Origin: a virus | IMG/VR virus record: IMGVR_UViG_3300027028_000034 | Coordinates: 1 to 48,982 of that record | Direction: 5' to 3' (one strand) | Length of the DNA stretch: 48,982 nt | Shown: one piece after another, positions 3,502 to 29,208 of the stretch | How the letters are laid out: every line of letters begins with the position of its first letter | Position numbering within the stretch: the first letter of the stretch is position 1 | Program-made: the position numbers and the translations under genes | Notes under the pieces: generated by a model | Seen by the model: the letters and a program-made list of their open reading frames with translations, nothing else | Told to the model about the DNA's origin: nothing | Databases searched by the model: none

Positions 3502-3928
3502 TTGTACCAGCTCCTTTATCGTTATTACCGCCTTTACCCTTCAGAACCTCAATTGCTTGCTTAATTACAGCCGGAATAGGCGCTCCCATTTTCCCGCCAT
3601 TTTCAGTGATGGACAGCAACTCGTTCGCGATATAAAAGAATGCCACCGTGTCCCTGAATAAGTGGCCATCACCAAGGATTCCATCCACCAAGTGTCCAAC
3701 CGCGACCATGGCAAAAATAAAGACCTTACGGGCAATCCCGATCAGGCCGATTTTGCTTTTAAGTTCCCCTGACATCCAACCTGCAGCAACCCCAGTTAGA
3801 TAATCAAAAATCACAAACACCAACAACACGCCGAGCACTCCAGACCAGCCCCCAAACAAATACGATGCCGCTCCACTTGCTACGGCTAAAACCCATCTCC
3901 CCACGTTCTCCAAAATCATATCCCCCAT
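3494..3928 (-). CDS. holin (toxin-secretion/phage-lysis type, Holin_4_1-like)
   Basis: Up to 144 residues with three to four hydrophobic segments (about 10-45, 65-85, 95-120). It contains the family-typical stretch FDYLTGVAAGWMSGELKSKIG and, near the C-terminus, NELLSITENGGKMGAPIP. This matches the phage holin family Cph1/Holin_4_1 (PF05105). It would form membrane lesions that release the amidase. The start is uncertain. The ATG at 3928 has no good ribosome site. The ATG at 3919 and the TTG at 3913 follow GGGGGA, and the TTG has the best spacing. Confidence 0.88.
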   Translation of the reverse strand: MGDMILENVGRWVLAVASGAASYLFGGWSGVLGVLLVFVIFDYLTGVAAGWMSGELKSKIGLIGIARKVFIFAMVAVGHLVDGILGDGHLFRDTVAFFYIANELLSITENGGKMGAPIPAVIKQAIEVLKGKGGNNDKGAGTNA

Positions 3929-4477: not shown

Positions 4478-6649
4478 TTAATTAACGATTTTGTAGCTGT
4501 CAATACTCTGAGTCAGCTTAACCATGCCGCTACTAGCAGTGGCAATATATACCCCTCCGTAAGCATCGATCGCCATTTCTCTAGCACCAGACACCGCCCC
4601 ATTGCTCCATACGTCCGCTCCCGCCCCCGCACCGTCAAGCCTCCGTGTGGTCTTGGCTGTAGATCCGCTGGAGCCGTTAAAAACCGCATATACGTTTAAA
4701 TCCTTATCAACTTTAATTCCCTCAGCACTTGTAAGATCAGTTCGAGTCCATACCGGAGTACCTGCTTTATTTAGTTTTCTTATTCCACCGCCAGCAACAT
4801 AACAATTCTCAAACCGATCTGTATCAATCCCTTCTATGCGACTAGTCACATCTTTGTTTTGCCAAAGTTGAACGCCTGATGGATCTAGTTTACGTACCCC
4901 ATCGCTTCCATACCCTACATACACGTTTCCGTAAATGTCGACGGCTACGGCATACGCGCTCGTAGGCGCTGTACTTCTCCATACTTCAACTCCGGACGGA
5001 GTTAGCTTTCTAACTCCTACGCCTGAGAAATGCGAAACGTACATGTTTCCTGCTGAATCTATCGCTATATTAGTCGCACTGCCAACATCCGAATTACTTG
5101 CAATCTCTACCCCGGAAGTGTTGTATTTCCTTACTGCCTTCGTTCCCGTGTTAAGGGCTACGCATATATTCCCGGCCGGATCCACCGCTACATTCCAAGC
5201 TGCCGGGGTGTTGGCTATACCCCATACCAATGTAAATCCTTCTGTTAACTTTCTGACGTTCGTTGCCGCTGTATCGGAATTATTATATACACAATAAACA
5301 TTTCCAAGAGCGTCTACCCCGATACCCATACCTATACCAGTCTGCGATGAATCCGTATATACATATTGCTGAGTAACTTTCAATATAGGCTCAGTTAGTT
5401 GACTAGCCGAGATACGATCTCCGTAACTGATATCCCCCCCTTCACCCTGTAAAATAAAAGCCGATGTTCCATCGTATACAAGCGTATAGATCGATCCAGC
5501 TTTAAAGAAGCTACTCGGAACAGCGGTTCCGTCAACCTTTTTAATGGTTTTAGCGCCGAGTCTGTTTACGTTTAGTGTAGACCCGCTTGACGTGTTAGTT
5601 GCGTTAACCTTTATTGTTACACGCGAACCCGGCGAAAGCGAGGAGGGCCTCCCATCCGCTGTTGTGACGCTGTACGTATTACCGGAATACGTAGTTACGC
5701 CAAAGCCTCCCGCCGATGCAGGATCGTCCTTCGCCAGTACTGTCCATGCGCTCCACCCGGCCCAAGTTTTGACCCTATACTGAACGCTACCTCTCTCGCT
5801 AGTGTAATGCTGGTATATTGTCTCGGAAGCATCTGCATACACCTGTAGTAAGCCGTTAGAATCAGGTATTCCCCCGACCATGGCCACAAAATAAAACCCA
5901 GGATCGACCATAGAATCTATCTGAGTATATCTACCATCTTCGTGTACTTTACCGTTATCCTGCGTCAATTTCACCTGCTGGGCTGCGGCTGCCTTATCGT
6001 AGGCTGTCTTAACTGCATTAGGTGTGGCAGCTCTATCCGTTACTGGACTATTGATCGCGTCCGATAATTGCACAATACCTTTTTGTGTCAAGCTTGCATC
6101 TGAGATTTTGATGTTATCCACCTTTTTCAGAATCTCTTCAAGACTGATATTTACCCGGCGATCTTCGAAAGAAATAACACCACTTGTGTCAGTTGCCACA
6201 TAAAAAAACAACAAACCAGCTTTGGCCGTTGCCTGAGATGACGTCTTTTTGACAACTCCATCGGTGTCCACATACAAATATTGTCCCTGGGTTTGATTCA
6301 GCGGCATTTCACCAGCAGCTACTTGGTATCGACGTCCGCCAACATAGGCTACTCCGGATGTCCAGGAAGCTTTGAGGCCCTGTGCGCTACCTTGGAGCCC
6401 CATTGTTCCGTTGATCGAGGCAACGAAATTACCACCCAGCTCCTTTGCCAATTGTTCGACCAATGTATGAGCTACTTCGATACCGCCTTCCATCGTATTA
6501 AGGCGATTTGAAGTGATTCGGGTACCGACTTGAACCAACTCAAATAACGGCCGCCCCGTTTGTGGGTCTGTCTTCTGTTTCCCTGATGCGTCATAGATGG
6601 GCTTTGTCATATCCGGAATTTCATCCAACCACGTTTGTTTGTTATACAA
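4478..6649 (-). CDS. tail fibre with C-terminal seven-repeat beta-propeller
   Basis: 723 residues, TTG start with GGAGGTGAAGGCAG upstream. Layout: residues 1-65 baseplate-attachment segment; 65-180 a beta domain ending FEDRRVNISLEEILKK; about 185-220 a phage tail fibre repeat (KGIVQLSDAINSPVTDRAAT, PF03406-like); about 230-310 a pyocin-knob-like domain (Y...S..G.VQYRVKTWAGWSAW); 315-405 a beta domain; about 420-720 seven successive repeats with the core D-x-x-G-N-V/I-Y-V, for example VDALGNVYC, VDPAGNICV, IDSAGNMYV, VDIYGNVYV, TDRFENCYV, VDKDLNVYA and IDAYGGVYI. These are NHL/SBBP-like and predict a seven-bladed beta-propeller, probably the receptor-binding head. It occupies the xkdV position. 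Confidence 0.8.
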   Translation of the reverse strand: MYNKQTWLDEIPDMTKPIYDASGKQKTDPQTGRPLFELVQVGTRITSNRLNTMEGGIEVAHTLVEQLAKELGGNFVASINGTMGLQGSAQGLKASWTSGVAYVGGRRYQVAAGEMPLNQTQGQYLYVDTDGVVKKTSSQATAKAGLLFFYVATDTSGVISFEDRRVNISLEEILKKVDNIKISDASLTQKGIVQLSDAINSPVTDRAATPNAVKTAYDKAAAAQQVKLTQDNGKVHEDGRYTQIDSMVDPGFYFVAMVGGIPDSNGLLQVYADASETIYQHYTSERGSVQYRVKTWAGWSAWTVLAKDDPASAGGFGVTTYSGNTYSVTTADGRPSSLSPGSRVTIKVNATNTSSGSTLNVNRLGAKTIKKVDGTAVPSSFFKAGSIYTLVYDGTSAFILQGEGGDISYGDRISASQLTEPILKVTQQYVYTDSSQTGIGMGIGVDALGNVYCVYNNSDTAATNVRKLTEGFTLVWGIANTPAAWNVAVDPAGNICVALNTGTKAVRKYNTSGVEIASNSDVGSATNIAIDSAGNMYVSHFSGVGVRKLTPSGVEVWRSTAPTSAYAVAVDIYGNVYVGYGSDGVRKLDPSGVQLWQNKDVTSRIEGIDTDRFENCYVAGGGIRKLNKAGTPVWTRTDLTSAEGIKVDKDLNVYAVFNGSSGSTAKTTRRLDGAGAGADVWSNGAVSGAREMAIDAYGGVYIATASSGMVKLTQSIDSYKIVN

Positions 6650-27065: not shown

Positions 27066-27278
27066 TTACCACTCATCATCCTTCTGAAGCTTGATATCCA
27101 GTTCGATGAGACGTTCCAGATCCTGAACGGTCTTCATCATTATATGTCCAGCCTGCAGGTCTTTAACCCACTGGGCGATAGCTGCCTTGACGATCTTCCT
27201 GTATTGCTCTTTACTCTCAAGGATACCTTCCATTACAGCGAGTTCATGTTGCAATAAATCTTCATCTGGTGTTCTCAT
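27066..27278 (-). CDS. small helical phage protein, unknown function
   Basis: 70 residues, almost entirely helical and charged (MRTPDEDLLQHELAVMEGIL...). No motif. It is the first leftward gene after the 27.3-kb structured region and precedes the terminase genes, with a 79-base gap to the next gene. Similar short helical proteins occur near terminases of Firmicute phages, without known function. Confidence 0.6.
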   Translation of the reverse strand: MRTPDEDLLQHELAVMEGILESKEQYRKIVKAAIAQWVKDLQAGHIMMKTVQDLERLIELDIKLQKDDEW

Positions 27279-27306
27279 GCGTACCCCTCAGCTTTCCGTT
27301 ATGATG

Positions 27307-27412
27307 GAATGCGAGATAGTGGATGTCTGCAAAATGCCACGCGTGGCGGGCCGCTATCTCAGCCGGGGGATACCCTGGGTGTTAAGGAGGACGTTACCGC
27401 GTCCTCCTTTTT
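27307..27412 (+). ncRNA. candidate structured small RNA with intrinsic terminator
   Basis: A -10-like TATGAT (27300-27305) precedes about 105 bases of nested helices: GAGATAG (27313-27319) with CTATCTC (27354-27360), enclosing GCCACGCGTGGC (27336-27347), then CCGGGGGATACCCTGG, and a terminator AGGAGGACG (27385-27393) / CGTCCTCCT (27400-27408) with T5. No convincing -35 box. It lies in a 228-base gap between leftward genes and is transcribed against them. A frame starting near 27304 is open but has no ribosome site and is crossed by all hairpins. Confidence 0.5.
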
Positions 27413-27506: not shown

Positions 27507-27902
27507 TTAGAAGATTAACTCACAATCTTTATGCTCCCATACATCAAATAAGTTTCCATCTAGATCTTCAAAAACAAAAAACTTGCCGTAAATGCCTTCA
27601 TTGCTAATTGGTCTGGTTGTAACTCCATCCGATGTTAGTCTCATGTGTAATGATTCGATATCATCTGTAAAAAATGTTACAACCCACCTTGGCCGTCCGT
27701 TTACTTCAAAAACCGCTCTTGTGTCATTATCAGATTCAATTAAATCAATTATTGGGCGGTTATCCCTGAATAAACTTATATAATTCCCTCTATCGTTTCT
27801 GATGTTAAAACCAAAGTGACTGACGAACCATTCTCCAGATTTTTTTGCATTTTTAACTGGAATAACATTATATGCGATTCCTAAAATACTCCCATTTACC
27901 AT
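27507..27902 (-). CDS. VOC (glyoxalase/bleomycin-resistance fold) family protein
   Basis: 131 residues with the paired beta-alpha-beta-beta-beta modules of the vicinal oxygen chelate fold: NVIPVKNAKKSGEWFVSHFGF in the first half and VVTFFTDDIESLHMRL then GKFFVFEDLDGNLFDVWEH in the second. Substrate unknown; the family includes glyoxalases, dioxygenases and fosfomycin/bleomycin resistance proteins. E at FDVWE is a candidate metal ligand. It has its own terminator and is AT-richer than the phage genes, so it is probably a moron that benefits the lysogen rather than a virion gene. Start supported by GGGGCTGAGTAGT. Confidence 0.8.
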   Translation of the reverse strand: MVNGSILGIAYNVIPVKNAKKSGEWFVSHFGFNIRNDRGNYISLFRDNRPIIDLIESDNDTRAVFEVNGRPRWVVTFFTDDIESLHMRLTSDGVTTRPISNEGIYGKFFVFEDLDGNLFDVWEHKDCELIF

Positions 27903-28063: not shown

Positions 28064-28672
28064 TTATTTTGGATAGGGTTTGTGCAAAGGCAGGATCTTA
28101 CGCCGCATCTTCTTGTTCAATGGCATTAAGTACTTGTGCTTGCCCTCTGTCCGGTACAATTCGGCATTGGCATCCAGATTGTTCCTGATCCAATCGATGC
28201 GTTGACTGCCGGTACCATACTTGCTGTGAATCGATTTGGGATGTGTCTTCTTGCCCCGGATGATGAAATAATGCTCCCCGTCCGTCTTGCCCTCATAGAT
28301 CCAGTTCGTCGCCTGATAGATCCCACCGTGATGCTTTTGCTCAACGTCGGCATAACTGACGATCAACTCCACATTGGGGGATTGCTCCTTCAAGAAACGG
28401 ATCGCTTTGGCAAGAATCTCCGATACAAATGATTGATGCTTGGTTAAGGCAACCCGTGTCAACTCACAACATTCACGCTGCGTCAGGCCATAAGGAGAAC
28501 CGATATTCTGAGTCGCCCCACGGCTGAATATAACAACACCGATAAACTGGCCATCCTCCCATGCTCCCACTTTGACCGACTTCCCTGCGGGCAAGCTGCG
28601 GCTATAGTGGAAATTCTCACAGGAAAACTTCGCTGCTGCATGTGTCGCCCAATCCACTTTTAAATCAATCAT
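28064..28672 (-). CDS. Mom-like DNA adenine modification protein (GNAT-related)
   Basis: 202 residues from the ATG at 28672, which overlaps the ParB-like stop codon (GAGG 9 bases upstream). The sequence pattern fits the Mom family, the phage Mu enzyme group that converts adenine in DNA to N6-(methylcarbamoyl)adenine using an acetyl-CoA-type cofactor and a GNAT fold (established knowledge for Mu). Features: FIGVVIFSRGATQNIGSPYG, then CCELTRVALTKHQ, VELIVSYADVEQKHHGGIYQ and a C-terminal basic segment RTEGKHKYLMPLNKKMRRK. The modification would protect phage DNA from host restriction. Family membership is recognised by eye; catalytic residues are not verified. Confidence 0.7.
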   Translation of the reverse strand: MIDLKVDWATHAAAKFSCENFHYSRSLPAGKSVKVGAWEDGQFIGVVIFSRGATQNIGSPYGLTQRECCELTRVALTKHQSFVSEILAKAIRFLKEQSPNVELIVSYADVEQKHHGGIYQATNWIYEGKTDGEHYFIIRGKKTHPKSIHSKYGTGSQRIDWIRNNLDANAELYRTEGKHKYLMPLNKKMRRKILPLHKPYPK

Positions 28673-29177
28673 GTTCGAATTCCTCATTACAGTGCGGACA
28701 AGTCACCAGTTTTGAACTCAATACCCCCAAATCGCCTTGATCCTCGGAAGTACCCGCATCGAAGTTCGGGATCTCAATCTCACCAAGCATCTGTTTCAGG
28801 TCCACATCGTCGAACCCGGACAAGGAAATATCCACGCCTTCCTGTTTCAGCTCAACAAGCAACTGCGAAAGGGCATCTTCATCCCAATCACCTGATACCT
28901 TATTCAAAGCGATATTCAGGAGCCGTTCCTGCTGATCGTCCAGATCCACCACGGATACCTGCAGCCCAGTGTGGCCCAGCTCATTGACCATGATCTTATA
29001 ACGTTGATGGCCACCAACCATGTTCCCTGTACGTTCGTTCCAGACAATCGGCTCAACATAACCGAATTCCTCTATACTGCGGCGAAGCTTCTCATATTCC
29101 AGATCCCCGGGCTGAAGGTCAACGCGGGGGTTGTAGGCTGCTGCATTAATCTGATCGATTGGCACGATTCTGATGTT
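28665..29177 (-). CDS. ParB-like N-terminal-domain protein with C-terminal zinc motif
   Basis: 170 residues from the ATG at 29177 (GAGGTGGTAGAA upstream; a longer frame to 29237 lacks a site). Residues about 1-85 are a ParB/Sulfiredoxin-type domain: IRIVPIDQINAAAYNPR, LRRSIEEFGYVEPIVWNE, and the nucleotide/nuclease motif GGHQRYK. The C-terminus carries a CPHC pair followed by EFEHD, probably binding zinc with the H. In phages such proteins are often paired with DNA-modifying enzymes, and here it overlaps the Mom-like gene, suggesting a joint role in DNA modification or its targeting. Confidence 0.85.
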   Translation of the reverse strand, partial: NIRIVPIDQINAAAYNPRVDLQPGDLEYEKLRRSIEEFGYVEPIVWNERTGNMVGGHQRYKIMVNELGHTGLQVSVVDLDDQQERLLNIALNKVSGDWDEDALSQLLVELKQEGVDISLSGFDDVDLKQMLGEIEIPNFDAGTSEDQGDLGVLSSKLVTCPHCNEEFEHD

Positions 29178-29208
29178 CATTTCTACCACCTCAAAGTTTT
29201 TTATGGCA

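Follow-up and report, generated by a model that had tools for sequence, protein, structure and literature searches.

Two overlapping genes in a viral genome, one encoding a Mom-like protein and the other a ParB-like protein, raise the question of what the pair does and from which donor Mom would draw the group that it attaches to adenine. We have examined the pair in the window (the whole stretch of 48,982 nucleotides that was analysed) together with its relatives in other phages. The features at the pair are as follows.

28665..29180, minus strand: parB-like gene, 171 aa, ParB/sulfiredoxin fold, GGHQR motif
29186..29192, minus strand: Shine-Dalgarno-like GAGGTGG for the parB-like gene, read from the sequence
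28668..28703, minus strand: C-terminal TCPHCNEEFEHD of the ParB-like protein, with one CxxC pair (CPHC end), read from the sequence
28682..28685, minus strand: Shine-Dalgarno-like GAGG for mom, inside the parB-like gene, read from the sequence
28665..28672, minus strand: 8 bp shared by the parB-like gene, at its stop, and mom, at its start, read from the sequence
28064..28672, minus strand: mom, 202 aa, predicted adenine-modifying enzyme, GNAT fold

The mom and parB-like genes of the window

The product of 28064-28672 on the minus strand is a full-length Mom-family protein, as the initial annotation had proposed from the sequence alone. It is matched by the Mom profile PF25680 with an E-value of 1.2e-44 and 152.8 bits, well above the curated cut-off of 27.1 bits, and by PHROG 1384 ('Mom-like DNA modification protein') at 4.7e-64. 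The alignment with Mu Mom that had been suggested as a check runs end to end over 200 aa (24% identity, E 2e-12) and shows HYS, ELxR, S(F/Y)AD and YQA.N to be shared, as well as the C terminus, which reads KPYPK as in Mu Mom, the last four residues PYPK being common to both. The structure predicted by AF2 has a mean pLDDT of 95.2, and its best match in the PDB is Mu Mom itself (8bv8, E 7e-12, TM 0.75), followed at far weaker E-values by CoA-binding GNATs. Apart from the low identity, Mu differs in having com in place of a ParB partner and in having no tRNA-like element of the kind described below. N6-methylcarbamoyl/carbamoylmethyl adenine is a plausible product of the window Mom by family. 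The gene runs from ATG 28672 to a stop at 28064, with a second in-frame ATG at 28687. The window is read as a Paenibacillus prophage, and close relatives reside in Paenibacillus genomes; fragmented mom matches in two such genomes (L402, L408 and L411) are apparently decayed copies or sequencing errors.

The parB-like gene starts at ATG 29180, the start having earlier been placed at 29177, and stops at 28665; a longer open reading frame from 29237 has no Shine-Dalgarno-like signal upstream. The two genes, described before as overlapping, do share 8 bp on the minus strand, a tight spacing that is kept in relatives, and translational coupling through this overlap is likely. The ParB/Srx core, the GGHQR motif and the CPHC end reported previously are also borne out. 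PHROG 620 (ParB-like) matches the protein at 7.3e-51, whereas PF02195 scores 26.1 bits, just below its curated cut-off of 26.3 bits, and the AF2 model (pLDDT 92.8) has its best PDB matches among Noc/ParB proteins (Noc 7nfu, E 8.5e-7), with sulfiredoxin at weaker E-values. By inspection, GGHQR (residues 56-60 of the 171-aa form) lies at the place of the ParB GxxR, and the C-terminal family consensus of 89 ParB-like relatives is CPxCGxEF. The fold is that of the ParB/Noc CTPases and sulfiredoxin, but the window protein is short and has the CxxC tail, and no parS system was found.

The pairing of mom with parB

A functional link between the two genes had been suggested, and the comparison across phages supports it. 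Among the 80 viral-contig loci retrieved with the window Mom, 78 have a ParB-like gene directly upstream of mom on the same strand, and the remaining two begin 11 and 154 nt away from a contig end. ParB adjoins Mom at 202 of the 211 Mom places retrieved, the exceptions being contig edges, for the most part, or second mom copies. In addition, three Chloroflexi loci combine mom and parB with the tRNA-like RNA described below in a different order, the usual one being parB-mom-RNA.

L413:2797-3811, L415:4891-5892 and L416:4380-5889: Chloroflexi loci with the order RNA-mom-parB, about 30% Mom identity

Since the same three parts are found here reordered, the Chloroflexi arrangement is strong evidence that RNA, mom and parB are a functional unit.

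The pairing is widespread and not unique to the window. The initial annotation had regarded it as a special and undescribed combination, which does not hold for its occurrence, as the two genes are each annotated in Enterococcus phage phiEf11, Arthrobacter Sonny (where one small ORF separates the ParB-like gene and mom) and Microbacterium Appa. What stands is that no paper was found, in the literature searched, that deals with the Mom+ParB pair itself; a prior description is possible. Two mom genes are present at L250:2001-3193, in tandem, and at L032:2807-5603, with a tRNA-like element 3' of the downstream copy (L250 3195-3270 and L032 5603-5670).

The same ParB family is also found without Mom, either next to a C5 cytosine methyltransferase or fused to an N6/N4 methyltransferase, the latter enzyme being once (L104) a separate protein encoded after ParB.

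L092, L097, L099, L101, L110, L116-L118, L121, L126-L128 and L154, at about 5020-6580 (L117 950-2500, L121 920-2470): ParB, then a C5 cytosine methyltransferase at the position that mom occupies in the window

Fusions of ParB domains to phage DNA methyltransferases have already been described (PMC12783734). In these ParB_N fusions (PHROG 498; CmoX neighbourhoods, PMC12783734) the same ParB_N/Srx domain is tied to a DNA base modifier, whereas the window ParB is a separate protein with a CxxC tail and the partner of a GNAT-type enzyme. Since members of one family stand beside C5 methyltransferases or are joined to N6/N4 methyltransferases, the ParB-like protein is most readily understood as a partner of phage DNA-modification enzymes in general. 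Targeting or energising the modification had both been suggested as its role; since the family also serves C5 and N6/N4 methyltransferases, whose chemistry proceeds without ATP or CTP, the comparison speaks for targeting or DNA loading rather than energising. The module lies near the terminase genes, as would suit a packaging or partition protein that is a mere neighbour of the modification gene, but this we find rather improbable given the tie of the family to three chemistries (Mom, C5 methyltransferase and fused N6/N4 methyltransferase) and given that ParB changes side in the Chloroflexi together with mom. With one ParB family for DNA-modifying enzymes of three chemistries, the role of ParB becomes a general question of phage anti-restriction.

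A glycine-tRNA-like RNA at mom

An unannotated RNA of about 69-76 nt that resembles a glycine tRNA is present in most Mom relatives that are neither Firmicute nor enterobacterial. Its usual place is within the 3'-terminal part of the mom reading frame, where it begins at the last Lys codon of the C-terminal KPYPK or 2 nt beyond it and ends in U-CCA; in the Chloroflexi it is upstream of mom. Class I elements align without gaps at 76 nt, and class II elements, of 68-70 nt including CCA, have a reduced D arm. RF00005 and ARAGORN overlook most of them. In the set L002-L005 (phiEf11, Sonny, Appa and Salinibacter B2_17), the element lies unannotated at 3616-3690 in Sonny, and in B2_17 and Appa it is annotated as tRNA-Gly without comment.

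The structure of the element is supported by very strong covariation in the acceptor, anticodon and T helices, and compensatory changes occur in every stem. In the class I alignment (n=12) 99.2% of cells are paired and 56 are changed on both sides; shuffles average 17.4 such cells, and none of 500 is as high. Structures slid along the same alignment are 34-47% paired. The class II alignment (n=8) is 98.5% paired, with 24 two-sided changes against 7.1 in shuffles. A covariance model built on class I alone recovers class II (E 1e-9 to 1e-3). Of 55 further Mom loci, among them L169, whose contig had been present in the first set, 54 match it at the mom 3' end, and the remaining locus is truncated by the end of its contig. 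This model gave no match in the ParB-without-Mom loci searched, and its strong matches elsewhere in 762 kb are just two: a regular tRNA-Gly belonging to a tRNA cluster, and the tRNA-Gly of Appa, which lies by mom on the other strand.

The association also holds when the search is made blind to mom. An 18-base pattern covering the T arm and acceptor end, scanned against viral contigs, gave 80 loci, 76 of which have a same-strand Mom homologue no more than 2.5 kb away (directly upstream in 35, further upstream in 25 and downstream in 16); the remaining four are 87-728 nt from a contig end. The RNA is specific for mom. It accompanies Bacteroidota, Clostridium and Nitrosomonas Moms as well, and neither the RNA nor ParB was found with Mu-like and Polaribacter-like Moms. 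An ordinary tRNA-Met is located directly 3' of one Polaribacter-like mom (L325:861-934). Within the element the mom frame is interrupted by a stop in 1 of 83 cases, the other frames in 47 of 83 and 62 of 83. Because the mom frame is kept open where the others have stops, the sequence is selected both for its RNA and for an open frame.

The relatives' RNA is glycine-specific and unlike a translating tRNA, as judged from its sequence. The element starts with G1C2G3 (GCG) in 85 of 86 unique elements and carries U73 in 85 of 86, with an encoded CCA in 78 of 86. In the 85 elements that remain when Appa is set aside, a glycine (NCC) anticodon is possible in 80 (ACC 42, TCC 31, CCC 7) and all 7 acceptor pairs form in 82. 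The glycine identity elements G1-C72, C2-G71, G3-C70, U73, C35 and C36 are near-invariant; among these, G1-C72, C2-G71, U73, C35 and C36 are the known identity elements of bacterial tRNA-Gly. The features that translation needs (U33, a canonical D arm and T-loop) are not kept: U33 is present in only 27 of the 86 unique elements and a canonical T-loop in 5 of 85, and one T-stem pair is mismatched in 84 of 85. Such a mismatch might lower the affinity for EF-Tu and so exclude the RNA from translation.

The window itself has no such element by ARAGORN, R1 or R2; no tRNA or other known RNA was found near its pair, and no such RNA was found in the Firmicute branch, the enterobacterial branch or Mu. 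In the Mom tree, where the Polaribacter row is out of frame and its position was disregarded, the Firmicute branch of the window falls among the RNA-bearing Moms with moderate support (SH-aLRT 86-94), and for this reason the likeliest reading is that the RNA was lost in this branch and host tRNA-Gly is used. The sequence between mom and the terminase genes contains three further features.

27507-27902, minus strand: glyoxalase-like gene that separates mom from the structured element
27278..27375, minus strand: conserved structured element of Firmicute phages, lying after mom and before the terminase genes (R3 97 bits, E 2.8e-23)
27066-27278: small gene of PHROG 1476

The structured element, which has 57 R3 matches in 78 sources, these matches being in Firmicute phages, and no Rfam match, consists of an outer stem with covariation, a 10-bp hairpin with an inner palindrome and a small third hairpin. 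We considered it as a counterpart of the tRNA and rejected this, as it also lies 3' of ParB+methyltransferase modules without Mom. It stands just before the PHROG 1476 gene and the terminase genes, belongs to the terminase side and is not Mom-specific; it may be a cos-like site for packaging, or else a leader RNA. The glyoxalase-like gene looks like an insertion, being absent there in close relatives such as L006. The genes for both the small and large terminase subunits are near the pair, and the small subunit matches NCBIfam 'TerS_not_xtmA', which argues against a PBSX-type terminase.

The donor of the modifying group

We propose, with a probability of about 0.6, that the two genes are a phage DNA-modification module in which the Mom of this clade takes its group from glycyl-tRNA(Gly) and the ParB-like protein is its DNA partner. 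Mom would use its GNAT fold to add a glycine-derived group to N6 of phage DNA adenines, hiding restriction sites, and the ParB-like protein would most likely act as a nucleotide-dependent clamp or adaptor and recruit Mom to DNA. The dedicated tRNA-Gly-like RNA of most members that are neither Firmicute nor enterobacterial could be charged by host GlyRS, while in the Firmicute branch, which includes the window and has no such RNA, host Gly-tRNA would be the donor. Glycyl transfer from Gly-tRNA to N6 of adenine would be followed by attack of the free amine on C6, a Smiles-type shift with a five-membered spiro intermediate, and N6 would be released as the amide to give a glycinamide-type base, N6-CH2-CO-NH2, as reported for Mu. 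We infer all of these steps: the charging of the RNA, its use as donor, the rearrangement, the role of ParB and the use of host tRNA in the group of the window. The fuller form of the proposal, that the Moms of the clade are glycyl-tRNA-dependent, with a non-translating tRNA-Gly charged by GlyRS feeding N6 while ParB loads the DNA, we put at even odds.

The mass added in the Mu base corresponds to one glycyl residue. The peptidyl transferases FemX, FemA and FemB have a GNAT-like fold and use glycyl-tRNA as donor, and the staphylococcal non-proteogenic tRNA-Gly is ill-suited for translation. FemXAB may offer a precedent in kind, with a comparable fold, donor and dedicated tRNA-Gly; their substrates are peptidoglycan precursors and not DNA. 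The title of Swinton 1983 (cited in PMC3874153) names the Mu base as a glycinamide.

In the published view the Mom donor is an acyl-CoA, 'such as glycyl coA' (PMC7824862), which in the literature searched is proposed and not demonstrated. A Mom that used glycyl- or acetyl-CoA would leave the RNA to the translation of glycine-rich late proteins or, for example, to service as a decoy for the tRNA nucleases of the host. The GNAT fold and the binding of CoA by the closest non-Mom PDB neighbours are consistent with such a donor, but the GNAT CoA pyrophosphate loop [QR]xxGx[GA], between beta4 and alpha3, is missing at the expected place in 84 of 84 Moms; the scarcity of U33, the reduced class II D arm, the T-stem mismatch and the non-canonical T-loop make the RNA ill-made for translation, and its near-exclusive occurrence with mom argues against its serving something else. 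On balance we think an acyl-CoA donor unlikely. A somewhat better case, although still a minority one in our estimation, can be made for a role of the element in cis, as a signal in the mom transcript for processing or autoregulation (punctuation by RNase P/Z, or a mimic to which Mom or GlyRS binds) and not as the source of the group. The element lies inside a mom frame that continues through it in 82 of 85 cases and is kept almost free of stops, which is needless for a free tRNA and could point to such a role; the glycine anticodon, acceptor identity and encoded CCA, all of them kept, are needless for processing, and the element is upstream of mom in the Chloroflexi and on the other strand in Appa.

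Prophages often integrate in tRNA genes, so that the tRNA-like sequence might also be the remnant of an integration into a host tRNA-Gly gene. This reading is disfavoured, and hardly credible, in view of the compensatory changes in every stem, the constant position at the 3' end of mom and the conserved departures from cellular tRNA. The glycyl-tRNA reading has its own counter-point in the window, the Firmicute and enterobacterial branches and Mu, all of which are without the RNA; since the window lacks it, its donor is assigned by kinship with the RNA-bearing Moms.

No link of Mom with glycyl-tRNA was found in the literature searched, and prior publication is possible. The elements described here constitute a whole family of phage tRNAs that tRNA finders overlook, and a glycine-specific tRNA tied to mom provides a concrete and directly testable alternative to the acyl-CoA donor. 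If true, a glycyl-tRNA donor would account for the Mu base being a glycinamide and would link the chemistry of translation to DNA modification, with a DNA base modification drawn from an aminoacyl-tRNA whose gene overlaps the reading frame of its enzyme.
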